Source of the DNA: Deltaproteobacteria bacterium
GTDB taxonomy: Bacteria; Desulfobacterota_B; Binatia; UBA9968
NCBI GenBank assembly: GCA_005879255.1
Contig: VBKY01000017.1
Span: 1-18,358, forward strand
Length of the DNA: 18,358 nucleotides
Direction of reading: 5' to 3'
Under the pieces are notes generated by a model. It was not told the DNA's origin. It did no database searches and saw nothing but the letters and a program-made list of their open reading frames with translations. Below are positions 485 to 17,866 of this stretch, piece after piece. Each line of letters opens with the position of its first letter. Position 1 is the first letter of the stretch. A program made the translations under genes and the position numbers.

Positions 485-528
485 CTAGGGGAACACGCAC
501 CTAGGAATCAGGGTATGCCGGATACCCT
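485..528 (+). repeat. Dispersed element copy R0 (divergent), upstream of DUF2092 gene
   Basis: This is the most diverged copy. It reads CTAGGGGA at 485-492, then AATCAGGG at 506-513, with the longest hairpin of the set: AGGGTAT (510-516), loop gccgg, ATACCCT (522-528). The hairpin is perfect over 7 bp although its sequence differs from other copies. It ends 157 nt before the ATG at 685. Confidence 0.5.
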
Positions 529-645
529 CTTGGGTGATTTTGTATTTTCATAGGTTGTGTGCCGCTGCGTGCGGTTCGACCGAAGTAAAAATGCGACCTG
601 GTCCGATGATTAACATCTCCAGCGTTGATCTTGATAATCCGCGGC

Positions 646-666
646 TCTGTCGTAAGTAGCGACAGA
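646..666 (+). promoter_or_regulatory. Leader hairpin before the DUF2092 Shine-Dalgarno
   Basis: There is a perfect 7-bp stem, TCTGTCG/CGACAGA, with a 7-nt loop. It ends five bases before the AGGAGAGG ribosome-binding site at 672-679. It is too close to the start to be a terminator of the upstream gene and has no U-tract, so a role in the 5' UTR is the likelier reading. No function is known. Confidence 0.35.
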
Positions 667-684
667 AGGAAAGGAGAGGAACGG

Positions 685-750
685 ATGGAAACTGCATGGT
701 TCTTGAAATTCGCCAGCCCATGATTCGCACGTTTCGGCATAGGTGCCGCG
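685..750 (+). pseudogene. Likely original N-terminus of the DUF2092 gene, cut by TGA at 721
   Basis: ATG 685 has a textbook SD at good spacing and is in frame with the DUF2092 body. Twelve codons later comes TGA (721-723). After it the frame continues with FARFGIGAA into the hydrophobic leader. A single C-to-T change (CGA to TGA) would explain the stop. An ATG overlaps the stop (720-722) in another frame but opens onto a non-protein-like sequence. The nonsense-mutation reading is an inference; a sequencing error is also possible. Confidence 0.55.
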
Positions 751-1539
751 ATGGTGCTGGCGGGCCTAAGCGCGAGTCCTGGCCGTGTAACGGCACAGCA
801 GCCCGAGGCGAAGGCGGCTCCAGCGGAGATCGATCCCAAAGCGATCGAGGCGTTGAAGTCGATGGGATCCCAACTGCGCGCGCTCAAAGCATTCGCGCTG
901 CGATCGGAAACCACGATCGATGAAATACTGGACAACGGCCAAAAGGTCCAATTCGGCGGCACGGTGGATTACCGCGTGCGTCGACCCAACGGGCTCCGCT
1001 TGGAAATCGTTTCCGATCGCCGCCACCGCCAGTACTACTTCAACGGCAAGACGCTCACCCAGTACGGGCCCACCATGAAGTACTACGCCTCGGTTGCCGC
1101 TCCTCCGACGCTGGCTGAGCTGGTGCAAGTTCTTGATCAGAAGTGCGGCCTGGAGATGCCGCTTTCCGACCTCTTTTTATGGGGGACTGATAAAGATGGT
1201 ATCAACGACATCAAGTCCGCTAGCTACATCGGCCCCAGCCGTATCGCCGGCGCGGCCTGCGATCATTATGCCTTTCGCCAGCAGGACGTCGATTGGCAGA
1301 TCTGGATCGAGCGAGGCAAGACCACGTTGCCGCGCAAGCTCGTGATCACAACCACCAGTGAGCCGGCACAGCCGCAATACGTGGCATTGCTGAAGTGGGA
1401 TCTCGCCCCGAAGCTTGACGACAGGACCTTTACCTTCGTGCCGCCCAAGGATGCGCACAAGATCGAAATGACAAGCGCCAGCGCGGCCGCGGGCAAAAAT
1501 AAGCTGGAGGCATGCCATGAAGAAACAGACTATGCATAA
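751..1539 (+). CDS. DUF2092 family periplasmic protein, signal peptide interrupted by in-frame TGA
   Basis: The 262-residue frame matches the DUF2092 family of predicted periplasmic proteins of unknown function. It starts with a helix (PKAIEALKSMGSQLRALKAF), followed by a LolA/LppX-like beta-sheet pattern: VQFGGTVDYRVRRPNGLRLE, the strand YYFNGKTLTQYGP, Trp-rich strands (DWQIWIERG), and RTFTFVPPKDAHKIE near the end. The start is a problem. The best ribosome-binding site (AGGAGAGG, 672-679) serves an ATG at 685 in this same frame, and residues after it would make a normal signal peptide (METAWFLKFASP-stop-FARFGIGAAMVLAGLSA). A TGA at 721-723 interrupts that reading. Starting at 751 leaves a hydrophobic but charge-poor leader with no SD. 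The gene is therefore either recently inactivated or uses the weaker internal start. The next gene overlaps its end by 23 bp. Confidence 0.8.
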   Translation: MVLAGLSASPGRVTAQQPEAKAAPAEIDPKAIEALKSMGSQLRALKAFALRSETTIDEILDNGQKVQFGGTVDYRVRRPNGLRLEIVSDRRHRQYYFNGKTLTQYGPTMKYYASVAAPPTLAELVQVLDQKCGLEMPLSDLFLWGTDKDGINDIKSASYIGPSRIAGAACDHYAFRQQDVDWQIWIERGKTTLPRKLVITTTSEPAQPQYVALLKWDLAPKLDDRTFTFVPPKDAHKIEMTSASAAAGKNKLEACHEETDYA

Positions 1540-1939
1540 ATCGGCCACGCTCCTAAGCGTGCTCCTCGTTGCAACGGGCGTAAATCTCGTGACACCGTGC
1601 GGCGTCGAAGCGCGTAATGTGAACAACACGACGCGCACGAGTGTTAACAGAAACGTCAACGTCAATCGAAACGTCGATGTCAATCGCCACGTGGATGTCG
1701 ACGTAGATGTTGATCGTCACTATCATAACGACTATCACCCGGTCGCGACGGCGGCAGCGGTTACGGCGGCGGCGGTGACCACTGCTGCGGTTGTGGGCTC
1801 GATCGTCCGCGCGCTCCCGCCGTCATGTTCGGCGGTGGTCGTCAATGGCCTGACGTACCAGCAGTGCGGCGGCGCTTGGTATCAGCCGCAATACGCGGGA
1901 ACATCGGTGACTTACGTCGTGGTGAATCCGCCGCGTTGA
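1517..1939 (+). CDS. Small exported protein with Asn/Val/Asp repeat
   Basis: The 140-residue protein starts at ATG 1517, supported by GGAGG at 1506-1510. It has a signal peptide (about residues 1-32). Then comes a low-complexity stretch of alternating N-V/D-V pairs (NVNVNRNVDVNRHVDVDVDV), a His-rich patch (RHYHNDYH), an Ala/Thr/Val-rich hydrophobic segment (about 76-100) that could be a second membrane segment, and a C-terminal part with two Cys (PPSC and QQCGG) and WYQPQYAG. Such proteins occur downstream of DUF2092 genes in Gram-negative bacteria as far as I recall, but their role is unknown. The 23-bp overlap with the DUF2092 gene suggests translational coupling. I assign no function. Confidence 0.75.
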   Translation: MKKQTMHKSATLLSVLLVATGVNLVTPCGVEARNVNNTTRTSVNRNVNVNRNVDVNRHVDVDVDVDRHYHNDYHPVATAAAVTAAAVTTAAVVGSIVRALPPSCSAVVVNGLTYQQCGGAWYQPQYAGTSVTYVVVNPPR

Positions 1940-2161
1940 CGCGCTCCGTGAGCAAGGCTTCCAAAAAGTGCAGAAGTCGGGACTGAGTCTCGGCTAGACC
2001 GAACTGAGTTCGACCACCTGTCGCGCCGTTGGAGTTTGCTGACGGAATGCTTCGCTCACGGCGAAAATCGTTATGGCGCAGGAATACAAGAAATTCACGA
2101 CCGGAATCAGACCGGATGAAAACGCTGGAGTAAAAAATCGAAAGAACGTTAAGGCCGAGAA
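1940..2161 (+). other. Intergenic region, nothing recognised
   Basis: This is 222 bp between the Asn/Val-rich exported protein and the HAD phosphatase. No copy of the dispersed element and no strong hairpin were found. The SD before 2162 is weak (AAGGCCGAG, 2151-2159). Confidence 0.5.
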
Positions 2162-3157
2162 ATGAAAATTCTTGGCGGGCAGTTCCGGCTTCTCATCGGC
2201 GCCATTCTTTTGTTGCCGAGATTGGCTCTTGCTCAAGCGGACGCTCTGCCTTCCTGGAACGACGGCGCCGCGAAGCAGGCCATCGTCGCATTCGTTGCGA
2301 GGGTGACGAACCAAGGCTCGCCCGATTTCGTGCCACTGGCGGAGCGCATCGCGACCTTCGATAACGATGGCACGTTGTGGTGCGAGCAGCCGATGTATGT
2401 GCAGATGGCATTCATGCTCGACCGCGTGAAGAAGCTCGCGCCGAAAAATCCCGAGTGGAAGAACAAGCAACCGTTCAAGGCGGTGCTCGAACGAGATTAC
2501 AAGGCTCTGGCAGTACAGGGCGAGAAAGTCGCGGTCCAGCTCGTCGCTGCCACGCACACAGGAATGTCGTCGGAGGAATTCAACCGCATCGCCGGCGACT
2601 GGATCGCCAAGGCGCGCCATCCGAAATTCCAGCGCGCTTATACCGAGCTGGTCTATCAGCCGATGATCGAACTGCTCGCTTACCTGCGCGCCAACGGCTT
2701 CAAGACTTTCATCGTTTCCGGCGGCGGCGTCGACTTCATGCGTCCCTGGACCGAAAAAGTTTACGGTATTCCTCCCGAGCAGGTGGTCGGCAGCATGGGC
2801 AAGCTCAAGTACGAAATGCGCGACGGCAAGCCGGTGCTGATGAAGCTTGCGGAGGTAGATCACGTCGATGATGGACCGGGCAAGCCCGTAGGTATTCAGA
2901 AATTCATCGGCCGCCGGCCCATCGCTGCCTTCGGCAACTCCGATGGCGACCTGCAAATGTTGCAATACACCGCCGCCGGGAACGGACCGCGCTTCATGAT
3001 GCTCGTGCACCACACCGACGCCGAGCGCGAATACGCCTACGATCGCAAGTCGTCAATCGGACGGTTGGATAAAGCGCTCGATGAGGCGAACGCGAAGGGC
3101 TGGACGGTGGCGGACATGAAAAGAGATTGGAAGCGGATTTTCGGCTTCGAGCGATGA
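2162..3157 (+). CDS. Exported HAD-superfamily phosphatase
   Basis: The 331-residue protein has an N-terminal signal peptide (residues 1-24, ending LALA-Q). All the haloacid-dehalogenase (HAD) phosphatase motifs are visible: motif I DNDGTLW (D67 the expected nucleophile, D69 the acid/base), motif II VSGGG (S186), the basic residue K247 in the IQKF segment, and motif III GNSDGDLQML (D261, D263 for Mg2+). The helical cap between motif I and motif II (about 75-175) matches subfamily I, the phosphoserine-phosphatase-like type. It should hydrolyse a phosphomonoester in the periplasm; the substrate is unknown. No partner gene is obvious. The next gene is convergent on the minus strand after a repeat-rich gap. 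Confidence 0.88.
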   Translation: MKILGGQFRLLIGAILLLPRLALAQADALPSWNDGAAKQAIVAFVARVTNQGSPDFVPLAERIATFDNDGTLWCEQPMYVQMAFMLDRVKKLAPKNPEWKNKQPFKAVLERDYKALAVQGEKVAVQLVAATHTGMSSEEFNRIAGDWIAKARHPKFQRAYTELVYQPMIELLAYLRANGFKTFIVSGGGVDFMRPWTEKVYGIPPEQVVGSMGKLKYEMRDGKPVLMKLAEVDHVDDGPGKPVGIQKFIGRRPIAAFGNSDGDLQMLQYTAAGNGPRFMMLVHHTDAEREYAYDRKSSIGRLDKALDEANAKGWTVADMKRDWKRIFGFER

Positions 3158-3218
3158 AGGAGAACGATTGGAAAATGCAAAGTTCCGGAAAACCGGTAGT
3201 GACTCAATTTAAACGCCA

Positions 3219-3282
3219 GATCCTTCACTGCGTTCAGGATGACAATTCCGATCAAGTGTCATTCTGAGTGCAGCGAAGAATC
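3219..3282 (+). repeat. 26-bp imperfect inverted repeat (REP-like hairpin)
   Basis: The left arm (3219-3244) begins GATCCTTCACTGCG and ends GGATGACA. The right arm (3257-3282) is its reverse complement except for six mismatches, with a 12-nt loop. The sequence, with its TCATTCTGAGTGCAGCGAAG core, belongs to a palindromic intergenic repeat type found in many environmental bacterial genomes. It may also act as a bidirectional terminator between the convergent genes. Confidence 0.65.
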
Positions 3283-3408
3283 TCTCTTGCCGCGATTTGC
3301 TGAAAACCAGCGCCGGCGCACGAAAATGAGTCACTGCGAAAAAACCGCTCTAAAGTCTACCCAAAGATATTTGAAATTTTGGGATAAAGAGAAGACCGGA
3401 AAAACTGT

Positions 3409-3440
3409 GTCTCGCGCAAAGACGCAAAGGCGCCAAGAAC
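3409..3440 (+). repeat. Short repeat with GCGCAAAGACGCAAAG core
   Basis: A purine-rich stretch (CTCGCGCAAAGACGCAAAGG) resembles a common intergenic repeat seen in many uncultivated bacterial genomes. There is only one copy in this window, so repeat status rests on general recognition. Confidence 0.35.
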
Positions 3441-3446
3441 AAAAAA

Positions 3447-3615
3447 ATTCGAAGCACGAAATCCGAAATTCGAAACAATATCAAATGACCAAAATAGGTA
3501 AAATTCCAAACTCCCTTCGGATTCGGTGTTTTGGATTTTCCCGATTTGAGATTTATTTGGCTCTGAGTTTGTTTCGGATTTCGATATTCGGATTTTGGAT
3601 TTGTTTCGCTGGTTG
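3447..3615 (+). repeat. AT-rich imperfect palindrome of GAAATCCGAAA/TTTCGGATTT units
   Basis: The left half contains GAAGCACGAAATCCGAAATT and CGAAACAA. The right half contains TTTGTTTCGGATTTCG and ATTCGGATTTTGGATTTG, roughly its reverse complement, giving an extended imperfect foldback of about 170 bp. Long palindromes of this kind are common non-coding repeats in environmental genomes. No transposase is present. Confidence 0.5.
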
Positions 3616-3804
3616 CTTGGCGCGATAACAATTTTTGTCACTTCAGTTAAGAGCATAATTTGTGAGAGACGAGTTCGCAGACTTCAGCGTGTAAGAATCT
3701 AAAAAGAAGGACAGATTTCAAACGACAGGAAAAAGGGACCATGAAACTCTGCCTGAAAGAACCCCGCAATCTATTTTGGAAGGCAAAGGCGGCCGGTTAT
3801 TCGA

Positions 3805-4146
3805 TCATTGTTGGCCGGCGAAAAACTTCTCCAACACGACGCCGATCTCAGGCACATGCACCGTGGCGACCTCCCAGATGATCTTCAAATCCACATTGGC
3901 ATAGTCATGAGCGACGATGTTACGCATGCCGCGCATTTTTCGAAAGGGAAGGTCGCGGATGACCTGGCGGGTCGCCTGGGTCAGATGCGCCGTGGCCTCG
4001 CCGATGATTTCGATGCGGCGGATCACCGCGTCTTGTTTTTCTGTGTTGGCGCCGAAGTCGGCTTCCGTCGTGCCTTTGACGTAGGAAGCGATCAGCCGCG
4101 CGGCCTCCAGAATGTCGCGCAGCCGGCCGAGTTGGTCAGTTTCCAT
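3805..4146 (-). CDS. hepT: HepT-like toxin (DUF86 HEPN ribonuclease)
   Basis: I start the protein at ATG 4146, giving 113 residues, the usual HepT size; an upstream extension in the same frame is not protein-like. The HEPN RNase motif R-x4-H-x-Y is present as R75-NIVA-H80-D-Y82, along with the conserved RIEIIGEA helix (44-51) and the preceding GTTEADF segment typical of this family. HepT is the toxin of the MntA/HepT type VII system, an RNase silenced when its partner adds AMP to the Tyr of the motif. It overlaps mntA by 11 bp, so the two should be cotranslated. The active-site residues are intact. Confidence 0.87.
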   Translation of the reverse strand: METDQLGRLRDILEAARLIASYVKGTTEADFGANTEKQDAVIRRIEIIGEATAHLTQATRQVIRDLPFRKMRGMRNIVAHDYANVDLKIIWEVATVHVPEIGVVLEKFFAGQQ

Positions 4147-4462
4147 ACAAGCACACGGCGGTGGCCAGAATGTGCTCGCTGGCAAAACGATTCGGTGATT
4201 TTTCCAAAGACGGACGCAGAACAAAATCCACGGGGCGGCCGATCAATTCCTCCGCCTCTCCTGCCATTTCCAGTAAATCAGCCGTGGAGACTGGTGCCGA
4301 CTCGTGGAAGGTCACCAGCAAGTCCACATCGCTGCCGGGATTGGTTTGGCCGCGTGCCGCGGAACCAAAAATCTCCAGCCGCCGGATGTGATGCTTCTCG
4401 CAAAATGGACGTAGCCGCCTTCGTAGATCGTCGGAAGAAAGCGCCTGCGGATCGCTCAACAT
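4136..4462 (-). CDS. mntA: MntA-like minimal nucleotidyltransferase antitoxin
   Basis: I chose ATG 4462, giving 108 residues, because the open frame upstream (to 4579) overlaps a vapC remnant and is not conserved-looking. The nucleotidyltransferase motif G-S-x10-D-x-D is complete (G33-S34, D45, D47 in IFGSAARGQTNPGSDVDLLV), and the third acidic residue is D79 in RPVDFVLR. In the characterised system the enzyme AMPylates the Tyr of the HepT active site. Gene order (antitoxin then toxin, overlapping) matches that system. It lies just after the decayed vapBC pair on the same strand, so the two systems may once have shared a promoter. Confidence 0.85.
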   Translation of the reverse strand: MLSDPQALSSDDLRRRLRPFCEKHHIRRLEIFGSAARGQTNPGSDVDLLVTFHESAPVSTADLLEMAGEAEELIGRPVDFVLRPSLEKSPNRFASEHILATAVCLYGN

Positions 4463-4532
4463 GGCGACAGGATAACCGGCGCACCTGTTGGTTGCAAGCT
4501 TGGCGCCGACGCCGTGATCGTCGTGGTGGAGT

Positions 4533-4610
4533 GCATCTTCGACAAAGATTGTGGTCGCTGGAATCAGACCGGAAAGCATGAACGAGAACGTTGCCGTTAG
4601 GAAGGAGCAT
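4533..4610 (-). pseudogene. vapC: vapC toxin remnant (N-terminal ~26 codons)
   Basis: ATG 4610 shares its A with the vapB stop (TGATG), the classical coupled vapB-vapC junction. The translation MLLPNGNVLVHAFRSDSSDH matches the start of PIN-domain VapC toxins. The catalytic Asp expected in the (L/P)DxN motif reads Asn-Gly here (PNGN). After about residue 26 the frame becomes Arg-rich and unlike VapC, and mntA begins 70 bp later, so the rest of the toxin gene is gone. The identification rests on a short match plus the junction. Confidence 0.6.
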
Positions 4611-4845
4611 CAATCTACCATCCGATCCTCGAGATCGCTCGATCGATTAAGATCAACGCCGGGCAGCGTACCTCCTGTAGACTTGGAAACTGGCAATCGC
4701 ACCCGCGTTGTCGCAGGGGTCTCGACTCGGCGAGCACGGTCTTTAAGCCCTCTTCGACCAGCGAGGTGAGAGTTCGCCCTTGCTCGGCTGCCTTCTTCTT
4801 TGCCCGGCGCAATAGATCGTCGGAGAGTCGAATTGTAGTTCTCAT
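4610..4845 (-). pseudogene. vapB: vapB antitoxin, frameshifted
   Basis: The N-terminus MRTTIRLSDDLLRRAKK is the ribbon-helix-helix DNA-binding domain of VapB antitoxins and continues to about TLTSLVEEGLKTVLAE. The expected C-terminal, toxin-binding part (RVRLPVSKSTGGTLPGVDL, ending RMVD) is present but in the next frame. A single-base frameshift near 4710-4720 is required, consistent with one lost base. The frame with the true C-terminus stops at 4610-4612, exactly where vapC starts. The uncorrected frame ends at 4615 with unrelated residues. No good SD is visible, and an inverted-repeat element starts 15 bp upstream. Confidence 0.7.
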
Positions 4846-4860
4846 AGGTCACGACAATGG

Positions 4861-4995
4861 GGTCAGGCAAACCTTATTGCTATTTCTTGGTTGCGAACTA
4901 TGGTTAAACGAGAACTGGACGGATTGACAAATCGAGAGCTGGCGAAAGAGTTACACCAAGATGGCGGCCAAAAAGATCGATAAGGTTTGCCTGAT
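4861..4995. mobile_element. MITE-like 135-bp element with 17-bp terminal inverted repeats
   Basis: The ends are GGTCAGGCAAACCTTAT (4861-4877) and its reverse complement ATAAGGTTTGCCTGATC (4979-4995), with one mismatch. Weaker symmetry extends inwards (TTGCTATTTCTTGG versus a CCAAAAAGATCGA end). The inside holds a 27-codon frame (ATG about 4901 to TAA 4981) that I do not recognise. There is no transposase, so it would depend on one elsewhere. GGGGTCAGG-type ends resemble repeats linked to REP-associated transposases, which is only a suggestion. It sits directly upstream of vapB and may have separated it from its promoter. Confidence 0.5.
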
Positions 4996-5066
4996 CACCC
5001 CAGATTCACAGATTCATGACCCGGACGGACTCCGACTTCACTTTGGGGGAAATCCCTCTCTTGCTT

Positions 5067-5099
5067 CGGGATGACGAGTCGAACAGAGTCGTCATCCCG
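5067..5099. repeat. Perfect 11-bp hairpin (REP-like)
   Basis: CGGGATGACGA (5067-5077) pairs perfectly with TCGTCATCCCG (5089-5099) around an 11-nt loop. The flanks CTT...GAGCCCTTCGG are typical of a widespread bacterial palindromic intergenic repeat. There is no U-tract and no gene ends nearby, so a terminator role is unlikely. Confidence 0.55.
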
Positions 5100-5304
5100 A
5101 GCCCTTCGGACAAGCTTTGGATAAACTCCGCGAAAAATCTTTTTTCATGTCCGGATTGAGCGGGCATTTGAAATGAGCCAGTGCCAAGTATTCCGCTTCA
5201 TTCGCCTCGGCAGTCATCCCGCGTCTTTGAGGTAAAACTTACCCACGGGTAGCAAGTCTCGCTAAAGAAGAATCGAAACTACGCCGCTTTCGTAGAATTC
5301 TTTG

Positions 5305-5344
5305 CTAAGGGATTTCAACGATAAAATCAGGGAACGCCTTATAG
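5305..5344 (+). repeat. Dispersed element copy R1, upstream of the methyltransferase-like gene
   Basis: CTAAGGGATTT (5305-5315) is followed by 8 nt, AAATCAGG, and CCTTATAG (5337-5344). GATTT and AAATC are inverted repeats of each other. The 3' hairpin is short, AGG/CCT. It ends about 200-300 nt before the possible starts of the downstream gene. Confidence 0.65.
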
Positions 5345-5548
5345 ACAAAAGGCGACCATTCGAATAACCGTTAAAGGGTCCAGCATTTTGCCGTGTGGCC
5401 TTGCGAACTGGCGAGAACATCGGCCAATTGATCAATCTCCTTGCGTAGAGTTATGTCGGGCCGGCGGTGCCCTGCGGTCCAACGCCGATTCGTATTGATA
5501 CGAAGCTTGCCGTGAGGGACCGAGAAAGCCGGGATAGGAAATGGAGTA

Positions 5549-6418
5549 TTGGTCGCCGCCGAGCAGATTGTGAGAAACTTTTCAGTGATAAGAAGCAGCG
5601 CGGATTCAAAAGTAGAAATAGACATAGGTCAGCGCGCTCCAGTGGCGTTACGCGTACGCCGCTATCGCCGTTGGTTGGCGCCGCCTCTCGCGTTGGTTCT
5701 TTTCAGCACGCTGGAGCCATGTTCGTTCGAAGGTGAGCTTCTCGATGACCTGACGACCTGCGCAGGCGTTGTGCTCTCTGCCGTGGGTCAATGGTGGCGC
5801 TTGTGGGCCTGGGGGAGCAATGCGGTTGTGAATCAGTCGGGAATTCGTGATCGCGGTCCGTATGCGTTGATGCGCCATCCACTCTATGCCGGGAACTTTC
5901 TCATTCTTCTAGGCTTGACGGTGACTTTCAACAATCCCTGGGCTTATCCGCTTTTGCTTTTCCCGTTTGCGTACCTCTATCATCTGATCACGCGCGTAGA
6001 TGAACAGCGGATGAATGCACACTTCGGCGCCGATTATCAGGCCTATGCTGAAAAAAACATGTCACGGCTTGTGCCGCATTTCAAAGAACTGAAGGTGGCA
6101 GTGAGCACGACCGCGCCCTTCAATTGGCTTTACGCTTGGCGCAAGGAATACAATTCGTTGTGCGCGGTGATGGCGGGCGTCGCATCGCTGGCAATTTATA
6201 GAGGCGCGCTCCACTACGGTTGGGAACAGACATGGCACGAGAGCCGAGCCTGGTTGTTAGTGATCGGTTTGTGCGGCGTCCTCGCTATCGTACTGAACCT
6301 GAAGCGATACATCGGCCAAAAAATGAATCAAGCGTCATTGCAACTAAGTCCAGGCGCTACGCCCGAAAACGCATTGGCAATTCAAGATTTGGGAGATAAA
6401 AAAACGATATCACCTTGA
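5549..6418 (+). CDS. Isoprenylcysteine carboxyl methyltransferase-like membrane protein
   Basis: The protein has up to 289 residues with about five membrane segments (starting WLAPPLALVLFSTL, TCAGVVLSAVGQWWRLWAWG, NFLILLGLTVTF, SLCAVMAGVASLAIY and AWLLVIGLCGVLAIV). The family signature is clear: RGPYALMRHPLYAGNF, the SAM-binding part of ICMT/PEMT-type methyltransferases, and DEQRMNAHFGADYQAYAE, the E-x8-F-x-x-Y-x-x-Y segment. Bacterial members methylate small, lipid or prenyl substrates at the membrane; the substrate here is unknown. The start is uncertain: TTG 5549 has no proper SD, no ATG is in frame, and GTG 5642 fits the conserved part better. The C-terminal membrane pair (about 205-255) goes beyond the minimal family and could be a family-specific extension. 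Confidence 0.75.
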   Translation: MVAAEQIVRNFSVIRSSADSKVEIDIGQRAPVALRVRRYRRWLAPPLALVLFSTLEPCSFEGELLDDLTTCAGVVLSAVGQWWRLWAWGSNAVVNQSGIRDRGPYALMRHPLYAGNFLILLGLTVTFNNPWAYPLLLFPFAYLYHLITRVDEQRMNAHFGADYQAYAEKNMSRLVPHFKELKVAVSTTAPFNWLYAWRKEYNSLCAVMAGVASLAIYRGALHYGWEQTWHESRAWLLVIGLCGVLAIVLNLKRYIGQKMNQASLQLSPGATPENALAIQDLGDKKTISP

Positions 6419-6528
6419 TTTGCCGTCATCGATGGCCGAAATGATTTTCACGCCTGGCCGCCGACTCGCGCTCCTCAAGCTGCTGAATCCGCCTCTCGCC
6501 CTCACGACGCGGTTCCGGATTAGTCCAG

Positions 6529-6934: not shown

Positions 6935-6967
6935 GGCGAAGTTCCGGGGAGGTTGAATCGCGGTGAG

Positions 6968-7111: not shown

Positions 7112-7212
7112 TGAGTGGCGGAAAGCTCGGAGAACATTGAAGCCCCAATTCCGCATGGACGACAGAGCGCCTAACGCTGCAGCGATTTTTTTGGGATTAA
7201 TAAAAAACTCTC

Positions 7213-7253
7213 CTAAGGGATTTGGGCGCGGCAAATCAGAGATTGCCTGATAG
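7213..7253 (+). repeat. Dispersed element copy R3, immediately upstream of the chimeric gene
   Basis: CTAAGGGATTT (7213-7223), 9 nt, AAATCAGAG, then GCCTGATAG ending at 7253. ATCAG pairs with CTGAT around AGATTGC. It is only 26 nt from ATG 7279, with GGAGG between. If TGATAG acted as a -10 box, transcription would start near 7260 and leave a normal short leader. The 5' flank GCAGCGATT is shared with R5 and R6. Confidence 0.7.
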
Positions 7254-7278
7254 GAAGCTCTTCTCATGGAGGGCAGCT

Positions 7279-9880: not shown

Positions 9881-9921
9881 CTAAGGGATTTCGAAGCCTA
9901 AAATCAGGACATCACCAATAG
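9881..9921 (+). repeat. Dispersed element copy R2, upstream of aquaporin gene
   Basis: CTAAGGGATTT (9881-9891), 9 nt, AAATCAGG, then CACCAATAG. The GATTT/AAATC pair is perfect; the 3' hairpin is the weakest of the set (GG/CC only). It ends about 296 nt before ATG 10217. Confidence 0.6.
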
Positions 9922-10171
9922 CGAGCTTGAGTTCAGATTTACTAGACTGATTCCCAATAGAGATGTTGCCCGAGAAGTTAGCGTTACAAGAGAAGAAAAT
10001 CGACGCGAAAGCGGATAAGTCCGAAAAGGCGTCTGCGAGGAGTATTTTATGAACGAAAAAAGGCCCGAGCTCTGGGCCATCCAAGAGAGCGAGGAGGAGA
10101 CAAGCGAAGGCGCGCGGATGCCTTTGGCGCAGTAGTAAACCATCTGGTGGTTCGCGATATAAAACAAACGT

Positions 10172-11143: not shown

Positions 11144-11424
11144 ATTGGTTGGGTTTTTGCGGTGTTCCAAGCCGGGCTCGCCGTTCAAGCGATAATCGGC
11201 GCGGTATGTAACCTCCGGGCGATACCCTGACCGCGAACCTACTCCCCTGGATCTGGTTTTACAGCATCGATCGCCAGATCGGTGTGCGTGCTCTGCAACA
11301 GCTTGAGGAAGGGCCGCCCGAACTCCGGCGGCTTGAACTTCCGAGAAAAAAAATACCGCCGCTGTTCCAGTCTAAGGAATTTAGCGGTCAATATCAGGTT
11401 AATCCTGATTCAGATAGCACATGA
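11144..11424 (+). pseudogene. Possible remnant of an unidentified membrane protein
   Basis: Frame 2 reads IGWVFAVFQAGLAVQAIIGAV, a membrane-segment-like stretch, until a stop after about 28 codons. Frame 1 then runs from 11212 to TGA 11422-11424 and includes TANLLPWIWFYSIDRQIGVR and ALQQLEEGPPELRRLELPRK. These look like coding sequence (hydrophobic segment, then a charged tail) joined by a frameshift near 11212. I do not recognise a family. The second frame runs straight through element R8. Confidence 0.3.
11372..11410 (+). repeat. Dispersed element copy R8, upstream of M48 protease gene
   Basis: CTAAGGAATTT (one change), exactly 9 nt, TATCAGG, then a perfect 6-bp hairpin ATCAGG-ttaat-CCTGAT (11393-11409). 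It gives the cleanest example of the 3' stem. The distance to GTG 11712 is about 300 nt. Confidence 0.6.
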
Positions 11425-11711
11425 TTCTGTAGCATTCTCCGAGAACCCTACATTTCGATTACATTAGCTTAATCGTGAGGCGGGATGGACATCGGGACTT
11501 TGATCGGCAATGTGGTTAGTGGCGGTGTGTGAGGCATCTTGATGGTAATCATCAGCCGCATAAAGGGTGCGATGGCGCGAGCCTAATCCGGATTTAAGCG
11601 AAATTCTCAGATTCCGTGGCGGGCCAAAGCTTACGATAACGGATCGCACGTCCCAAAATAATTCGCTGGAAATGCGGTAAGAGTCGGGCACTGTCCATTC
11701 TGGAAACAATC

Positions 11712-12371
11712 GTGATCTTCGTAAACACACCGCATTCCGTGAGCCGACTTTTTGTTATTTTTCTTTCTCTTGTTATCTCCTCTTGTTCATTGCCTCCGGC
11801 CTTATTTTTACCCGTTGTCAAAGATGACCGGCTCGAAAGGTTTGTGGCCGACGAAGCGGCGAGAATTCTTTTGGTATCGGACCACGCGCACAGAACAACG
11901 CTTTACAGTTTTTATCTCATAAATTTCCCGCGCAAGGACATTTTAGGCCTTAGTCTTGGCGATCATCAGATTTTCATAAGCTACGAATTGAGCCGGCGCG
12001 GTTTCGAGCACACCGGTTACCTTTGGCTGTTCAGACATACCCTTGCCCATGAAATAGCTCATCACGCGTTGGGGCATGGACAGAACGAACATGCGGCGAG
12101 TTTGAACGCCGTGCCTCGTTCTGCGGCCCAAATCAACGCGCGCGACCTCGGTCTGCCGCCGGTCATTTCACTCCGCAACTATTCACTGGCTTCAGAGTTG
12201 GCCGCTGATCGAAAAGCGATGGAGTACTGGCAGAAGTTGGGCTGGGATTGCCGCATCTGGATCGCCCTATTGGAAAGTTTCCTGGCCGAAGGTTACATGG
12301 GCGATGTGCATCATCCAACTGAAGAACGGCTAGGCGAAGCTATTAGGTCGTGCCCCGCGACAGTTTCATAG
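11712..12371 (+). CDS. M48-family metalloprotease lipoprotein
   Basis: The 219-residue protein starts at GTG 11712; no in-frame ATG exists and the SD is poor. A lipoprotein signal with lipobox ISSC (C25) predicts membrane anchoring. The zinc-protease motif HEIAHHALGH (H113, E114, H117) and the third ligand glutamate in ELAADRKAMEYW (E162) match M48/BepA-LoiP-type peptidases, which act on misfolded or envelope proteins in the periplasm. It is shorter than BepA and has no TPR region, so it is closer to the small LoiP/YcaL type. The terminator-like hairpin just after the stop suggests a single-gene transcript. Confidence 0.85.
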   Translation: MIFVNTPHSVSRLFVIFLSLVISSCSLPPALFLPVVKDDRLERFVADEAARILLVSDHAHRTTLYSFYLINFPRKDILGLSLGDHQIFISYELSRRGFEHTGYLWLFRHTLAHEIAHHALGHGQNEHAASLNAVPRSAAQINARDLGLPPVISLRNYSLASELAADRKAMEYWQKLGWDCRIWIALLESFLAEGYMGDVHHPTEERLGEAIRSCPATVS

Positions 12372-12391
12372 AGGGGTTGTAATCTCCCCTT
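12372..12391 (+). terminator. Possible rho-independent terminator after M48 gene
   Basis: AGGGG (12372-12376) pairs with CCCCT (12386-12390), followed by a pyrimidine run TTTCCTT. It starts at the base after the stop codon TAG. The stem is short, so it is weak. A second perfect stem follows at 12401-12418 (ATCCAG-gttaga-CTGGAT). Confidence 0.35.
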
Positions 12392-12741
12392 TCCTTCTCC
12401 ATCCAGGTTAGACTGGATCACCCGCTCAAAATCCCTTTGGATAGATTTCCGAATGGCGAGTTACACACTTGATGCATCCAGTTCTAGATTCCGATCTATC
12501 AATCAAGAGGTTCAACTTAATTCCTAAGGGATTTGGAAAGACAAAATAGGGTATTGCCTGATGGCCCCACTAGCCTAACTTCAATAGGTTCATCGCGACA
12601 AGAAAGTCTGACAACAGCCCAGTCGAAGACGAAGAACGGTAGTGGTTGGAGTTTTTTGAACTTTGGACCCTTGTCTTACTCGGGACACCCGGTTTGATCT
12701 AAGCGATACCAAATGAACTTCAACTAAATGGGGAGGCACTC
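12392..12741 (+). other. Leader region of the Rap1a-like gene
   Basis: Beyond the stems at 12372-12418 and element copy R4 (12524-12564), I see no gene or further structure in this 350 bp. Confidence 0.4.
12524..12564 (+). repeat. Dispersed element copy R4, upstream of Rap1a-like gene
   Basis: CTAAGGGATTT (12524-12534), 8 nt, AAAATAGGG, then TTGCCTGATGG. The 3' hairpin is AGG/CCT with outer AT pairs. Its right half resembles the right end of the inverted-repeat element at 4979-4999 (AAAGA...TAGG...TTGCCTGAT...CCC). It ends 178 nt before ATG 12742. Confidence 0.6.
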
Positions 12742-13119
12742 ATGAAACAATGGATAGTTAGGTTGGTGACTGCTGGTTCTTTGCTCCTGCCGGTTACCGC
12801 CATGCCACTGACACAGGAAGATTTCCTCGTCAAGACGACTCGCGATCTCTTGAATCTGTGCAGCGCTGCTGCCGATGATCCGATGCAGAAAGAAGCTACA
12901 CAAATGTGTCACGGTTACCTCATCGGGGCGGTCCATTATCACGAGGCGGCGGTATCGTTGGGGCGCAAGAGGCTGGTGTGTTTTCCCAATCCGGCGCCAT
13001 CACGAAACGAAGCAGTTGCCGAGTACGTTCAGTGGGCGAAGGCCCGTCCCCAACACATGAATGAACTTCCTGTCGAGACGGAATTTCGATTTCTGATGGA
13101 AAAGTGGCCCTGCAAGTAG
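12742..13119 (+). CDS. Rap1a/Tai immunity-like exported protein
   Basis: The 125-residue protein has a signal peptide (residues 1-20) and GGGGAGG at 12729-12735 before ATG 12742. Four cysteines (C40, C56, C80, C124) and the segments QMCHGYLIGAVHYHEAA, LVCFPNPAPSRNEAVAEYVQ and VETEFRFLMEKWPCK match the Rap1a/Tai family, named for Serratia periplasmic immunity proteins against type VI effectors. Many family members occur far from any secretion system, as here, and their role is unknown, so immunity function should not be assumed. A glycine-zipper lipoprotein follows after 27 bp, probably in the same operon. Confidence 0.75.
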   Translation: MKQWIVRLVTAGSLLLPVTAMPLTQEDFLVKTTRDLLNLCSAAADDPMQKEATQMCHGYLIGAVHYHEAAVSLGRKRLVCFPNPAPSRNEAVAEYVQWAKARPQHMNELPVETEFRFLMEKWPCK

Positions 13120-13146
13120 CACCCGAATGATTGTATGGAGGATCTC

Positions 13147-13422
13147 ATGAAGCGAATTACTCACGTGCCGCTTGCACTTGTGATCGTCTGCAGTATCTGG
13201 GGTTGCGCGGGAATGACGGACACGCAGCAGAGAACGCTAAGTGGAAGCGTGCTGGGCGCTGGCGCGGGCGGAATTATAGGCGCGATTTCAGGTAACGCGG
13301 GAATGGGAGCAGCTATCGGCGCCGGGGTAGGCGCAGCCGGCGGCTTCCTTTATGGCAAGCACAAGGAAGCTGAAGATGAAGCGTATCAGCGGGGCGTGGC
13401 CGATGGCCGACAGTCTCGCTAA
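13147..13422 (+). CDS. Glycine-zipper lipoprotein
   Basis: I use ATG 13147 because ATG 13135 lies in the SD (GGAGG, 13137-13141). The 91-residue product has a lipoprotein signal with a Cys in the WGCAG segment. Then comes a glycine-zipper hydrophobic hairpin (GAGAGGIIGAISGNAGMGAA...GAGVGAAGG) and a short charged tail (KHKEAEDEAYQRG). Such proteins are usually outer-membrane-associated lipoproteins. It probably shares a transcript with the Rap1a-like gene. Confidence 0.8.
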   Translation: MKRITHVPLALVIVCSIWGCAGMTDTQQRTLSGSVLGAGAGGIIGAISGNAGMGAAIGAGVGAAGGFLYGKHKEAEDEAYQRGVADGRQSR

Positions 13423-13617
13423 CTTAGGAGCGCAAGAAGATCAGAAGTTTTTCAATTCAGTAACAGGTTGCCAAAAAGGATACGGTATGCAGGCTAAGCA
13501 CAATGGAATCTTCTGATGTCATTTCAAATCTCTTTCCGTTAGTTCCTTCGATAATCTCAGGACCGGCTCTGAGCACGTTGAAGAACTCGGGGAGTGTTTC
13601 CGCAATCCTGCTGGAAA
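13423..13617. other. Convergent gap, nothing recognised
   Basis: 195 bp between the glycine-zipper gene (plus) and mlaC (minus). An AAATCAGGA string at 13617-13625 lacks the rest of the dispersed element. Confidence 0.4.
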
Positions 13618-14220
13618 TCAGGACCGCTTCTCCTTCAGAATACGCAGCAAATCCTCAAAAGATGAGCGCATGATCACCCTGTGGAACTGGGAACGGTAGT
13701 TGTCGACAAGGCTGATATCATCGATGATGACGTCATAGACCTTCCAATCATCGTCGATGAGGTGCATTTTGTAACTGACGACCAAATCTTTGGCGCCATT
13801 TGTGACAATCTTCGTATCAACCTCTGCGCTATTCGCGTTGTTCCATTCACGCGTGAAGAGAACCGTTGAATTTTCATAAGACCGGATACCGTCAATATAT
13901 GATCTCGCCAACGTAGTCGCAAAAAGCGTGACGAACTCTTGCCTTTCTTCGGGAGTGCGGTTTTCCCAGTGCGGTCCCAAACATCGCTTGGCCATTTCAG
14001 CGAAATCGAATCTAGGCGAGACGACTTGCATAACGTTGGCCCCAAAGGCGTCAATTTCCGCCTTGGAACCAAAGCGCGCGGATTTCAGTATCACGACGAT
14101 CTGTTCCCACGTGCCCTGCAACTGCCCTGTTGGTGTGATGGCGGTTGAGTGCGACGGATACAATAAAGAAATCCCCCAAAAAAGAATTGCTGCAATGGTA
14201 ATTATAAATGTTCGATTCAA
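13618..14220 (-). CDS. mlaC: MlaC/Ttg2D-family periplasmic phospholipid-binding protein
   Basis: This 200-residue protein is of typical MlaC length, with a signal peptide (about 1-27, HSTA-I). Conserved MlaC blocks are visible: VSPRFDFAEMAKRCLGPHW, the RTPEERQEF helix, VDTKIVTNGAKDLVVSYKM, and VYDVIIDDISLVDNYRSQFH. MlaC shuttles phospholipids between outer and inner membrane as part of the Mla pathway with the MlaFEDB ABC complex. No mlaD, mlaE or mlaF gene is nearby, so this is an orphan copy. The only start is TTG 14220 (an in-frame stop lies 27 nt upstream), which is unusual and may mean low expression. Two truncated copies lie at 6968-7111 and 16045-16150. Confidence 0.88.
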   Translation of the reverse strand: MNRTFIITIAAILFWGISLLYPSHSTAITPTGQLQGTWEQIVVILKSARFGSKAEIDAFGANVMQVVSPRFDFAEMAKRCLGPHWENRTPEERQEFVTLFATTLARSYIDGIRSYENSTVLFTREWNNANSAEVDTKIVTNGAKDLVVSYKMHLIDDDWKVYDVIIDDISLVDNYRSQFHRVIMRSSFEDLLRILKEKRS

Positions 14221-14538
14221 CGGCTCTACTTCCCGCCTGGATGGTTACTGTCCTGCACTCATATCATTTCAAAGAAATTGAAGTATCGGTGTTCGGCTGA
14301 TTTTGGCCTGCCTAATTCCTTAGTACCAAGTTCGATGCGCTGCACATTAATGCACGTCAACGTCCCGCCAAACCAACCAGCGATTGTCACATCGGTATCT
14401 GCGATTTGGTGGTCCGTTAGAACCGGTCACAATGAACGGGCTAAGTACCGGAAAGCTCGAAAAACGTTGAAGTCCAAATTCGCGTTGACGATAGAGGACC
14501 GTAATGCCGCAGCGATTCTCTGGGAATGAAAACCTCAT
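14221..14538. other. Spacer between mlaC and element R5, repeated elsewhere
   Basis: No gene. The part from about 14385 (GTATCTGCGAT, later GGAAAGCTCGAAAAACGTTG) is similar to 16150-16290 and, in its last part, to 7112-7212. It is therefore a piece of a repeated module rather than unique spacer. Confidence 0.55.
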
Positions 14539-14579
14539 CTAAGGGATTTGGGCGCCGCAAATCAGAGAATGCCTGATAG
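14539..14579 (+). repeat. Dispersed element copy R5, upstream of small lipoprotein
   Basis: CTAAGGGATTT (14539-14549), 9 nt GGGCGCCGC, AAATCAGAG, GCCTGATAG. It is identical to R6 over the whole element and nearly identical over the flanks (GCAGCGATT... before, GAAGCGCTGCTC after). It ends 122 nt before ATG 14701. Confidence 0.7.
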
Positions 14580-14593
14580 GAAGCGCTGCTCAA

Positions 14594-14602
14594 GGAGGGC
14601 AG
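14594..14602 (+). promoter_or_regulatory. Vestigial ribosome-binding site without its gene
   Basis: GGAGGGCAGC follows element R5 at the same place where, after R3, GGAGGGCAGCT leads into the ATG of the exported protein. Here the ATG and coding region have gone and the sequence becomes unrelated (GCCGTCCCTGG). Confidence 0.5.
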
Positions 14603-14700
14603 CGCCGTCCCTGGCAATAATTCTTCAGGATTGTTCAATAGTAGACAGCAATTCGTGGCAAGTCAGTGGAGCATGAACTAGAGGAAGGGAGGAAAACCGA

Positions 14701-14964
14701 ATGAAGATCCGAAAAGTTATCAGCATTGCAGCTGTCATGGCGATGGTTGCCGTCGGGGCGTGCAAGGAAACACCAACCGATAGACCGGTGTCTGGCAACT
14801 CCAAAGGTGACGGACAACGGGGAGGCGCTGAAGCCGTCGTAGCGCTTCTGCTTGCCCTTCGGCAGCAGTCCGCGCAGCGAGAAATCTCCGCCGAGTGCGT
14901 TCAGACAAGTAAAGAACAAAAAGCGTACGACTGTCTATCGCAAAAATCTCAAGTTCTTCGGTGA
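14701..14964 (+). CDS. Small lipoprotein, unknown function
   Basis: The 87-residue protein starts at ATG 14701 behind GGGAGG (14687-14692). Its signal ends in the lipobox VGAC (C21). The mature part is polar (KETPTDRPVSGNSKGDGQRG) followed by an Ala/Leu-rich helix (AEAVVALLLALRQQSAQRE) and a C-terminal part with two Cys. I do not recognise a family. It follows element R5 and has no clear operon partner. Confidence 0.6.
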   Translation: MKIRKVISIAAVMAMVAVGACKETPTDRPVSGNSKGDGQRGGAEAVVALLLALRQQSAQREISAECVQTSKEQKAYDCLSQKSQVLR

Positions 14965-15048
14965 AGCAGTTTTGAAACGGTCAAAGAAAGGAACACGGAT
15001 AGATTAAAGATTTCGGCAGGGCGAATCACACTTAGTTAGAGGTGCAAA

Positions 15049-15252
15049 TTGAAAGCTAAATCGAAGAGACAACTGCATATCACTTGGGATGAAGCCTGGC
15101 GGGCGGAAAATCAGCGCGAGAAAGCGAGACAAGCGTGCTGTAACGAAATCCCCACCGCTGGTCCTGTGAAACTATTCGCTACGAATGTCGCTAGAGAACT
15201 CCCTAAAGTAAAAGCCGCAGCATTCCGATTTTTGAGCGTGAAGATTCATTGA
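15049..15252 (+). CDS. Possible small protein, unknown
   Basis: This is a 67-codon frame starting at TTG with a weak SD (AGAGGTG). Composition is plausible for a small basic protein (KAKSKRQLHITWDEAWRAE). It has no signal peptide, no family match and no ATG. It may be real or chance. Confidence 0.25.
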   Translation: MKAKSKRQLHITWDEAWRAENQREKARQACCNEIPTAGPVKLFATNVARELPKVKAAAFRFLSVKIH

Positions 15253-15311
15253 TTCCTCGGCGACTTGCCCATTCCCATGTGCACCCACATGGCGCGGACA
15301 CGCAGGCGGTG

Positions 15312-15854
15312 CCGGATAACGTGGCCGTGAGGTACTGAATCGAGCGCATAGCATCACCGCCGAAGTGGAGATTCCCAAAGCGGGTGCCGAAGGCGTGCTG
15401 CTATCTCACGGTGGCAACTCCGGCGGCTACACGTTTTTTATCAAAGACAAAAAGCTCCACTATGTTCACAACTACGTCGGTGCCGAAGAGTTCCACGTCG
15501 AATCAAGAGAAGCCGTTCCCGAAGGAAAGCTGGAATTGCGCTTTGAATTCGAGCCGACAGGAAAACCGGACATCGCCAAGGGAAAAGGCACGGCCGGCCG
15601 CGCGCAGTTCTTATATCAATAACAAGCTTGCTGGTCAGGGCGCTATCCCCGTCACGATTCCGTTGCTGATAAGCCTGGGCGAAGGACTGAACGTGGGCCG
15701 CGACCCGGGCTCGCCGACCTCGAAGTTATACCAGCCGCCGTTCGAGTTCACCGGCAGAATTTACAAAGTGACGGTGGACGTGTCCGGCAAGATGATTCAG
15801 GACACCGAAGAGGAGATGAAGGCATTCGCGAAGGCGGCGATGGCGCGGCAGTAG
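15312..15854 (+). pseudogene. Arylsulfatase C-terminal domain pseudogene
   Basis: The reading begins near PDNVAV (frame broken around 15325), continues EVLNRAHSITAEVEIPKAGA and GGYTFFIKDKKLHYVHNYV to GRAQF, then needs a one-base shift near 15610 (an extra T) to continue INNKLAGQGAIPVTIP and NVGRDPGSPTSKLYQPPFEF, ending AAMARQ-stop at 15854. This is the same beta-domain as in the chimeric gene at 7279, from a different parent copy. The catalytic domain is absent and there is no start or SD. Confidence 0.75.
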
Positions 15855-15864
15855 AGAGGGTATT

Positions 15865-16044
15865 ATGGCGAGACGCGCACAAAGGAAATCAACTAACAAA
15901 AGGACCGAGAAAAAAACCGCACGGAAGGAAAACGTCAAAGGGCTTCAGCGCGCAGGTCCCCAGCATATTAAGAAGCCGTCCCTCAGTCGGGCGCGCTTCT
16001 GCGCGCGTCGAAGTCTCCAACGCCCGTTCCGGCTCGGCAAACCT
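15865..16044 (+). other. Possible truncated start of another gene (Lys/Arg-rich)
   Basis: ATG 15865 opens a basic N-terminus (MARRAQRKSTNKRTEKKTAR) ten bases after the sulfatase wreck. The frame then runs antisense through the mlaC remnant to 16164, so only the first 30-60 codons could be original. Basic leaders like this occur on some arylsulfatases and small nucleoid proteins. No decision is possible. Confidence 0.2.
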
Positions 16045-16150
16045 TTCGTCTCGACTGCGCTTCCCCCAGTGCGAGCCCAAGCAGCGCTTCGCCATTTCAG
16101 TGAAGTCGAATCTAAGCGAGATGACTTGCATCATTTTGGCCCCAGGCTAT
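16045..16150 (-). pseudogene. mlaC remnant 2 (internal ~30 codons)
   Basis: On the minus strand, MMQVISLRFDFTEMAKRCLG followed by SHWGKRSRDERF matches residues of full-length mlaC (VMQVVSPRFDFAEMAKRCLG, PHWENRTPEERQEF). Similarity stops on both sides; nucleotide identity extends a little upstream (GCCTGGGGCCAA... versus GCCTTTGGGGCCAA...). No start or stop codon of mlaC remains. Confidence 0.75.
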
Positions 16151-16291
16151 CTGCGATCTCGTGATGTGCTAGAACCAGTCGCAATGGACGACTAAGCAAC
16201 GGGGAGGCCCGAAGGATTAGTCGAGCTCAACCCATATAGAGGGACGGGTCGCCGTCACACCGCAGCGATTCTTTGGGAATGAAAACCTCAT

Positions 16292-16332
16292 CTAAGGGAT
16301 TTGGGCGCCGCAAATCAGAGAATGCCTGATAG
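16292..16332 (+). repeat. Dispersed element copy R6, upstream of exported protein
   Basis: CTAAGGGATTT, GGGCGCCGC, AAATCAGAG, GCCTGATAG: identical to R5. The flank GCAGCGATTCTTTGGGAATG is also shared. It ends 78 nt before ATG 16410; a 50-bp insertion relative to R3 lies between. Confidence 0.7.
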
Positions 16333-16409
16333 GAAGCGCTGCTCGGCGGCAATAGAATGCTCCCTGGTTGAGAACAAAAATACTCGTCAAGCAAAAAAGG
16401 AGGACAGCT

Positions 16410-16856
16410 ATGTTCAAAGTACGAACGCTCTCGCGACTCGTGATGCTCGTCTTATTGACCGTGTGTGCGGCAACGGCTGTCGCCGCGGACAGCCCGAAGC
16501 CTTCGGGAAAGGTGTCGATCGAGAGCAAGTCGATCGCTGCCGGTGTCGGTGTTACCTGGGGCGAAGGAAAACTGAGCTTCAAAGGCAAGGACTACCCGTT
16601 CTCCATCGACGGCCTGACGGTCGTGGACTTTGGGATTAGCAAAGCAAGCGCCACCGGCGACGTTTATAACTTGACCGACGTCGCGAAGTTCGCCGGAACG
16701 TACGTCGCCGCTGAAGCTGGCTTTGCTTTGGCCGGCGGCGTGGGCGGCATGGTGCTGCGCAATCAGGACGGCGTGGTTATGCACGTACGCTCGACATCCA
16801 AAGGCGCCAAGCTGCAGCTAGGACCAAGCGGGCTGTCCATCAAGCTCAAGAACTAA
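16410..16856 (+). CDS. Small exported protein, unnamed conserved family
   Basis: ATG 16410 is supported by AAGGAGG (16397-16403). The protein has 148 residues with a signal peptide to about residue 26 (AVAA-DS). The mature part reads SGKVSIESKSIAAGVGVTWG, then KLSFKGKDYPFSIDGLTVVD, SATGDVYNLTDVAKFAGTY, a Gly/Ala-rich segment (AGFALAGGVGGMVLRNQDGV) and a short beta end (GPSGLSIKLKN). I know proteins with this pattern (W-G-x-G, YPF-x-IxGL, VYNL-x-D, GTY, Gly-rich, NQ-x-GV) from several Gram-negative groups but cannot give a family name or function. Its first 48 residues were duplicated and fused to the sulfatase domain at 7279. Confidence 0.75.
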   Translation: MFKVRTLSRLVMLVLLTVCAATAVAADSPKPSGKVSIESKSIAAGVGVTWGEGKLSFKGKDYPFSIDGLTVVDFGISKASATGDVYNLTDVAKFAGTYVAAEAGFALAGGVGGMVLRNQDGVVMHVRSTSKGAKLQLGPSGLSIKLKN

Positions 16857-16947
16857 ACAATAGGGATGGTCACCGTTGCTGCTACGTAATGATTTTGCAA
16901 CCGCAAATGAGAGTCGTGTAGCAGCACCCTGACCCGGTGAAGAGCCG

Positions 16948-17467
16948 CTTGCACAAAAAGGATTCACCCGCGGCGCCAATTTAATCGCCGAAAAGTTTAT
17001 CGACAAAGCGGTAAAGGACGACAAGCCCTTCTTCGTATGGTTCAACACGACCCGCATGCATGTCTGGACGCACTTGAAGAAGAAAACGGAAGGGAGAACC
17101 GGGATCGGCCTGTATCCCGACGGTGTGGTGGAGCATGGCGAGATGGTCGGCGAGCTGCTCGACAAGCTCGACGATCTCCGCATCACGGACAACACCATCG
17201 TCATTTATAGCACCGACAACGGCGCGGAGATCGTGTCGTGGCCGGACGGCGGGTGCGCGCCTTTTCACGGCGAGAAGGGCATGGGAAGGCGGGCATCGGG
17301 TGCCGCTCCTCCTGCGCTGGCCCGGTGTCATCAAGCCGGGCACACAGGTCAACGAGATCATCGCCCACAACGACTGGCTGCCGACATTTCTCGCGGCCGC
17401 CGGTGAGCCGAACATCAAAGAGAAGCTGCTCCCCATGCGACGAATCTTGGACCTTCGCGTCGCCTAG
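16948..17467 (+). pseudogene. Arylsulfatase central domain pseudogene
   Basis: The frame reads TRGANLIAEKFIDKAVKDDK, PFFVWFNTTRMHVWTHLK, GLYPDGVVEHGEMVGELLDK, then IVIYSTDNGAEIVSWPDGG and FHGEKG: the middle of a long arylsulfatase, including the metal-binding STDNGAE motif. A frame change near 17285 is needed to continue WEGGHRVPLLLRWPG, VIKPGTQVNEIIAHNDWLPT and FLAAAGEPNIKEKLL. It lacks the N-terminal part with the formylglycine Cys and the C-terminal domain. An in-frame TGA at 16930-16932 closes the frame upstream. It cannot be active. Confidence 0.8.
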
Positions 17468-17866
17468 CCCGCTCATTTTGGCGGGCTGTGGTGCCATTGA
17501 ACGGTGCGGAGCCGGGGAAAAATCGATCCGCTTTCAATACACGCTCGTGCTGCCACCTGCGCGACAGCGATGCAAACGTTTTCTTGCTTCGCGGTGTGTT
17601 GCCTCACAAATTGTTCGGCTTGGCGCAGAGCTTGCGGGTCACCGGCCGATCGCGACCTCGCCCGACCCGCACTCGACGACCGGACTCGGTCCCTTGCTTA
17701 CAGGACTCGAAGAGCTAGCATTCTTTGGCTGAGGAATTTCGTAATAAAAATCAGGGCGACCCTAATAGCGACCGGAAGTTCAGAATAAAACTCGACGGAG
17801 AGACAAAACGATAAATGATCGCTGTGCCAACCTCTCGCGGCGCGCCTTAACCAGGAGAGGTGAAAC
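17468..17866 (+). other. Gap before phospholipase D-like gene
   Basis: 399 bp. Open frames here do not look like protein. Element copy R7 is at 17729-17768. Nothing else was recognised. Confidence 0.4.
17729..17768 (+). repeat. Dispersed element copy R7, upstream of phospholipase D-like gene
   Basis: CTGAGGAATTT (two changes), 8 nt, AAATCAGGG, then CGACCCTAATAG. The 3' hairpin is AGGG-cga-CCCT, with paired bases that differ from R8 and R5 but remain complementary. It ends 99 nt before ATG 17867. Confidence 0.6.

Follow-up and report, generated by a model that had tools for sequence, protein, structure and literature searches.

What does a sequence of about 40 bp do when it recurs along a single bacterial contig, again and again ahead of genes? 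The question is raised by an 18,358-nt stretch (here called the window: contig VBKY01000017.1 of assembly GCA_005879255.1, positions 1 to 18,358) from a Deltaproteobacteria bacterium of the GTDB lineage Desulfobacterota_B, Binatia, UBA9968. A preliminary description, made from the letters alone, had listed nine copies of such an element and had proposed a promoter/operator or a leader RNA, with a mobile repeat as the main alternative. Our analysis suggests that the element is a putative tandem operator at envelope-gene promoters, serving a two-component system of the HisKA_3/NarL type and probably a class II activator; we consider this reading likely. The observations behind it are the motif itself, its placement, a -10-like box at a fixed distance, two orthologous promoters, and a genomic linkage to two-component genes.

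Copies, anatomy and placement of the element

The window was searched with a sequence-only covariance model, run without filters and trained partly on window copies. It recovered eight full copies on the plus strand (E 9e-12 to 6e-9) and a ninth on the minus strand (E 7e-8), all positioned in Table 1. Eight of the originally listed copies therefore stand, the one at 485 comprises merely the 3' half of the element, and the statement that every copy lies on the plus strand is refuted. Repetition beyond chance is borne out: the window contains five matches to the pattern TAAGGGATTT-N6/11-AAATCAG, and 200 dinucleotide shuffles contain none. A position weight matrix built from the 90 non-window rows of the copy alignment (A5) ranked the eight plus-strand full copies top, with scores of 30 to 43, followed by 14321 on the minus strand (20.1) and 487 on the plus strand (10.9), the best of 25 shuffles reaching 6.2; this test is partly circular, since the outside copies came from models seeded with window copies.

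A 93-nt stretch is common to the copies at 7213, 14539 and 16292, at 67% and 96% identity to the middle copy, and an 85%-identical repeat of 154 nt (7268-7421 and 16399-16552) also trails the first and last of them. The trio thus sits in a duplicated stretch, leaving about seven independent full copies. Because most window genes are on the plus strand, the plus-strand bias of the copies says little. The minus-strand copy precedes a minus-strand MlaC-family gene by 63 nt, so that the orientation of the element follows that of the gene, and this copy is better evidence for gene-directed orientation than the bias is. Other remnants of segmental duplication around the trio are an MlaC fragment (6968-7267) and a 103-nt repeat with 82% identity (13942-14044 and 16042-16144).

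The copies conform to the consensus CTMAGGTATTTCGAAG-N3-AAAATCAGGGATTTCCTGATAG, and the element is about 41 bp long. Its right part is a 17-bp palindrome, ATCAGG-N5-CCTGAT, in which at least four of the six symmetric bases are kept in 92 of 99 cases, and the half-site is repeated 22 bp upstream of the palindrome as CTMAGG. The unconserved positions are fixed: spacer bases vary freely between copies while the blocks stay constant. Downstream, in a region outside the reach of the search models, 28 of 96 copies carry a -10-like TAnnnT at offset 22 after GAT, against a background of 0.0175 per position (P 2.5e-26), and 42 of 96 carry one at offsets 21-23. A general -10 matrix applied to all 76 copies favors the same offset (-1.28, vs -2.67 for the best of 200 shuffles), and the copies of a Planctomycetes genome introduced below carry TAnnnT there in seven of seven cases. 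With TAnnnT taken as the -10 box, simple arithmetic puts the centre of the palindrome at about -42, makes its right end coincide with the -35 hexamer and leaves a spacer of 17 bp. That hexamer starts with TTGA in 13 of 99 copies and otherwise in 86. The TGATAG, TAATAG or TTATAG block previously suggested as a -10 box is instead the right half of the palindrome at the -35 position, the -10 enrichment lying about 20 bp further downstream. The element is thus most likely an operator, and neither a leader RNA nor the -10 box itself.

Placement was assessed for 96 distinct copies against open reading frames (ORFs) picked greedily by length, small genes being missed. ORFs of at least 120 aa contain only five of the copies, compared with 74% of the 20000 positions drawn at random. 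A same-strand ORF is what 63 copies face (median distance 142 nt), as do 12% of random positions, and eight copies face the end of a locus. Random or intragenic placement, which the preliminary description had named as the outcome that would speak against it, was not seen. A role as promoter or operator, one of its two proposals, agrees with copies that are intergenic, mostly directed at genes, present in other genomes and followed by a -10-like box at a fixed distance.

Distribution, target genes and two-component linkage

To what extent is the element found beyond the window? The strict pattern gave 18 single hits when one genome per species was searched, where arithmetic predicts about 15 by chance. 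Two of the 18 are real: L009, a contig of 'Deltaproteobacteria bacterium CR_Sed_300A_bin.10' (genome G001) that has the third block and hence all three, and L015, from the Planctomycetes metagenome-assembled genome (MAG) GWF2_50_10 (G486), which has seven further matches. Model R3 was run on 14 of the other 17 hit genomes (those other than L011, L017 and L019); 11 gave no match, G477 and G482 returned their own pattern hit only, and G486 was confirmed as a true carrier, with eight matches. Three hits of the strict pattern in viral contigs were judged by eye to be chance.

Searches with the models extended this picture. G001 itself has 11 matches at E <= 0.01 with model R1 and 14 at E <= 0.5 with model R2. 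Among 97 relatives, R1 found two matching genomes at E <= 0.01, one being G001, and across its phylum the broader R2 matched 27 of 395 genomes at E <= 0.003, counting G001; 16 candidates were scored per genome, which makes the counts minimum values, and about one false genome is expected. All 14 carriers re-searched with R3 matched at E <= 0.01, the number of matches per genome ranging from 1 to 20 and being highest in G129. In the phylum of G486, six of 294 genomes, G486 included, match at E <= 0.001. A third phylum gave no match with R3 among 299 genomes, a weak negative for want of a known positive, and another gave three weak matches among 299. Obtained with fast filters, these genome counts are lower bounds, and the model E-values are rough. 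The search with a covariance model, proposed in the preliminary description, has located the element outside the window in two phyla.

Orthologous promoters retain the element. The window aquaporin is 56% identical to a G001 protein, and the product of the window gene 11712-12371 is 59% identical to another, whose weak Peptidase_M48 match (E 1.2e-4) supplies the M48-like label; in G001 the element lies 50-54 nt upstream of both. The window targets are mainly exported or envelope proteins (Table 1), and the Pfam scan of window genes agrees in this with the earlier claim. Another G001 element precedes a LuxR-type regulator; the next gene matches STAS weakly and has a part that looks MlaE-like by eye. 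In the window, an element precedes an mlaC-family gene. Outside the window, downstream families include the membrane proteins OAD_beta and TerC (both in several genomes), DUF3300, DUF748/AsmA, PilZ and others, a list drawn from 40 Pfam-scanned genes with 14 set aside as lacking a Pfam match or being unlike envelope proteins. Elements precede OAD_beta-family genes in G218, G313 and G372, and TerC-family genes in G313, G372 and G191.

Among those 40 genes near outside copies, two-component proteins were conspicuous: G001 has both a LuxR-type regulator and a hybrid kinase, and a further carrier, G403, has a HisKA_3 kinase. In G403 the element precedes an operon of HisKA_3 kinase and LuxR-type regulator; in G001 it is flanked by two LuxR-type regulators, behind a HisKA_3 kinase. 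The linked regulators carry receiver and GerE domains and the kinases HisKA_3, and those relatives of the G403 kinase that are named belong to Syntrophobacterales and to a Deltaproteobacteria MAG. Searches with tblastn placed relatives of the G403 and G001 regulators inside element loci of further genomes. Of the five Planctomycetota-side genomes other than G486, three likewise have a regulator relative in an element locus. When the G403 regulator was searched in 40 genomes, 30 matched at 1e-40. In 11 of 25 genomes an element occurs no more than 3.5 kb from the best match, where 0.15 would be expected (tail P 7e-20); this test leaves out the two genomes that prompted the idea, G403 and G001, as well as G138 and G470 for lack of a match.

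The predicted operator and its alternatives

How would such an element work? Each copy is predicted to be the cis-regulatory part of a promoter, with two tandem sites for a NarL/FixJ response regulator (LuxR-type helix-turn-helix) whose partner would be a HisKA_3 histidine kinase. Of the two, the palindrome would be the proximal site, with its centre some 42 bp ahead of the start and one end reaching into the -35 position; a half-site two helical turns (22 bp) upstream, CTMAGG..., would be the distal one. The phosphorylated regulator would bind both sites and activate a sigma70-type promoter in class II fashion. Activation is favored because the right half-site mostly replaces the -35 hexamer. 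Binding, phosphorylation, the signal and the choice of activation over repression are what we infer from sequence, and the window would be a dense cluster of targets, mainly for exported or envelope proteins.

Several observations weigh against this reading. Twenty of the 96 copies first face an ORF on the opposite strand, as do 10% of random positions. TAnnnT is missing at offsets 21-23 in 54 of 96 copies, the peak of the general -10 matrix is no higher than in shuffles for the window alone or for G001 alone, and the copies at 7213 and 14539 have no -10-like box at the expected position, although these boxes may have decayed after duplication. As to the linkage, the 3.5-kb radius was chosen after the loci had been seen, and 14 of the 25 genomes have their best regulator match away from any element. 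At the 1e-40 threshold, G138 and G470 carry elements and no regulator match; conversely, G484 (47% identity), G489 (50%) and G481 (37%) have a regulator match and no element. The window itself contains no regulator gene.

Two rival readings concern who reads the operator and how. Were the regulator a repressor, it would cover the -35 region and block polymerase until released. The overlap of the palindrome with the -35 position fits this, as do the 13 copies whose hexamer starts with TTGA, yet the remaining 86 imply that many promoters are weak unaided, and a second upstream site would suit activation better; we regard repression as unlikely. The operator could also be real and belong to another regulator, encoded elsewhere, with the NarL-type genes merely among its targets. 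The 14 unlinked genomes and the two carriers without a close regulator argue for this, and the terminal part of a sigma54-type activator gene opens two G001 element contigs. The -10 box makes the promoter sigma70-like rather than sigma54-like, no sigma54 scan having been made, and the linkage to kinase and regulator genes in 11 of 25 genomes speaks for the two-component system; a different regulator is, in our judgment, no likelier than repression.

Explanations in which the element is no operator fare far worse. A mobile repeat, of the repetitive extragenic palindromic (REP) or miniature inverted-repeat transposable element (MITE) kind, landing in promoter regions would account for the density in the window, and the contig of the first outside copy (L009) does carry an IS200-like (Y1) transposase gene at 2382-2801 on the minus strand (E 6e-10). 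Such repeats are marked by near-identical, sharp-ended copies in unrelated flanks, and none were found among the copies compared; the near-identical trio lies in a duplicated stretch. Free variation in the spacers beside fixed blocks, 1 to 20 copies per carrier genome, a -10-like box in register beyond the element, and retention of the element at the orthologous aquaporin and M48-like genes of G001 all count against mobility, and what had been the main alternative is now very improbable. Least probable of all, and close to negligible, is a leader RNA at the 5' end of the transcript, whether hairpin, riboswitch or thermometer. The inverted repeat could fold and its distance to the start codon is variable, but the -10-like box lies downstream of the element, which would place it upstream of the transcription start and hence outside the transcript of that promoter; in an Rfam scan of the window no family reached its gathering score, the one weak match lying elsewhere (10055-10102).

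If the tandem operator is accepted, its density invites a further proposal. The window holds nine full operators in 18 kb, compared with the 1 to 20 matches of whole draft carrier genomes. Desulfobacterota-like bacteria and some Planctomycetota could have in common a hitherto undescribed and mainly envelope-related regulon that one HisKA_3/NarL-type two-component system controls through this operator, with an island grown by duplication of gene plus operator in the window lineage; we offer this tentatively, at somewhat less than even chances. If true, it would be a case of regulon growth by duplicating operator-gene units. More broadly, an orphan motif would be tied to a particular response-regulator group in bacteria known mostly from metagenomes, making regulons predictable from sequence where genetics is absent.

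Window features and known systems

Table 1. Copies of the element and -10-like boxes in the window, with OAD_beta/TerC element loci elsewhere
Feature	Location	Strand	Context
Partial element, palindromic 3' half only	506..525	+	E 0.0024, within the copy first placed at 485; next plus-strand gene DUF2092 (751-1539)
Full element	5305..5345	+	203 nt before methyltransferase-like gene 5549-6418 (PEMT)
Full element, duplicated trio	7213..7253	+	~25 nt before ATG 7279 (protein without Pfam match); expected -10-like box absent
Full element	9881..9922	+	294 nt before aquaporin gene 10217-10963
-10-like TAGACT	9943..9948	+	Offset 23, 9881 copy
Full element	11372..11410	+	301 nt before gene 11712-12371 (M48-like; without Pfam match of its own)
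-10-like TAGCAT	11430..11435	+	Offset 20, 11372 copy
Full element	12524..12565	+	176 nt before Rap1a-family gene 12742-13119, then glycine-zipper gene
-10-like TAGGTT	12585..12590	+	Offset 22, 12524 copy
Full element	14284..14323	-	63 nt before minus-strand MlaC-family gene 13618-14220
Full element, duplicated trio	14539..14579	+	~120 nt before small exported-protein gene 14701-14964; expected -10-like box absent
Full element, duplicated trio	16292..16332	+	~77 nt before ATG 16410, EipA-family gene
-10-like TAGAAT	16353..16358	+	Offset 22, 16292 copy
Full element	17729..17769	+	97 nt before gene 17867 (weak PLDc_2 match, below Pfam cutoff)
OAD_beta/TerC element loci	L096, L114, L122, L123, L163		Partly beside kinase/regulator genes

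The window has further features of its own. On the minus strand at 3805-4579, adjoining HepT-like (Pfam E 1e-23) and NTP_transf_2 (E 8e-15) genes resemble a HEPN/MNT toxin-antitoxin pair. The intergenic stretch 3240-3640 is of low complexity and repeat-like, with runs that by eye resemble dispersed filler sequence. Genes that look broken include a sulfatase fragment (17056-17467) and overlapping frames (15365-15854) near a second relative of the 7279 gene.

Does the predicted operator correspond to a known one? Among solved structures, the G403 regulator is closest in sequence to VraR (E 1.4e-40), NarL (7.6e-34) and DevR (3.3e-29); the known sites of these three differ from the palindrome of the element. 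The site of NreC, TAGGG-N4-CCCTA, resembles its TCAGG-N5-CCTGA, the spacing of the arms differing by one base; the consensus ATCAGG-N5-CCTGAT does not match that site, and the likeness is one of resemblance only. The NreB/NreC system of staphylococci and bacilli is reported to work through a NarL-family regulator that, once phosphorylated, binds a GC-rich palindrome to enhance transcription (PMC5694512, PMC8139620). Its targets are nitrate/nitrite or sulfur genes, whereas those of the element are mainly for envelope or exported proteins, with no nitrate/nitrite respiration family among the Pfam-scanned downstream genes. A second upstream half-site within the conserved unit likewise sets the element apart from NreC. 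A literature search for the motif strings returned no paper that, judged by title, concerns such a bacterial operator.

Another parallel comes from Desulfovibrio vulgaris. According to a study of its response regulators, most sites are palindromic, with arms of 4-6 bp set 3-8 bp apart, and five of the regulators studied are of the LytR or NarL type (PMC3333781). ATCAGG-N5-CCTGAT fits this geometry, and the bacteria are related; the element may match one of the D. vulgaris NarL/LytR-type motifs, a comparison made by general geometry only. The kind of operator is itself known, and the interest of the present case lies in its density in the window and in the linkage, across phyla, to one group of regulators.

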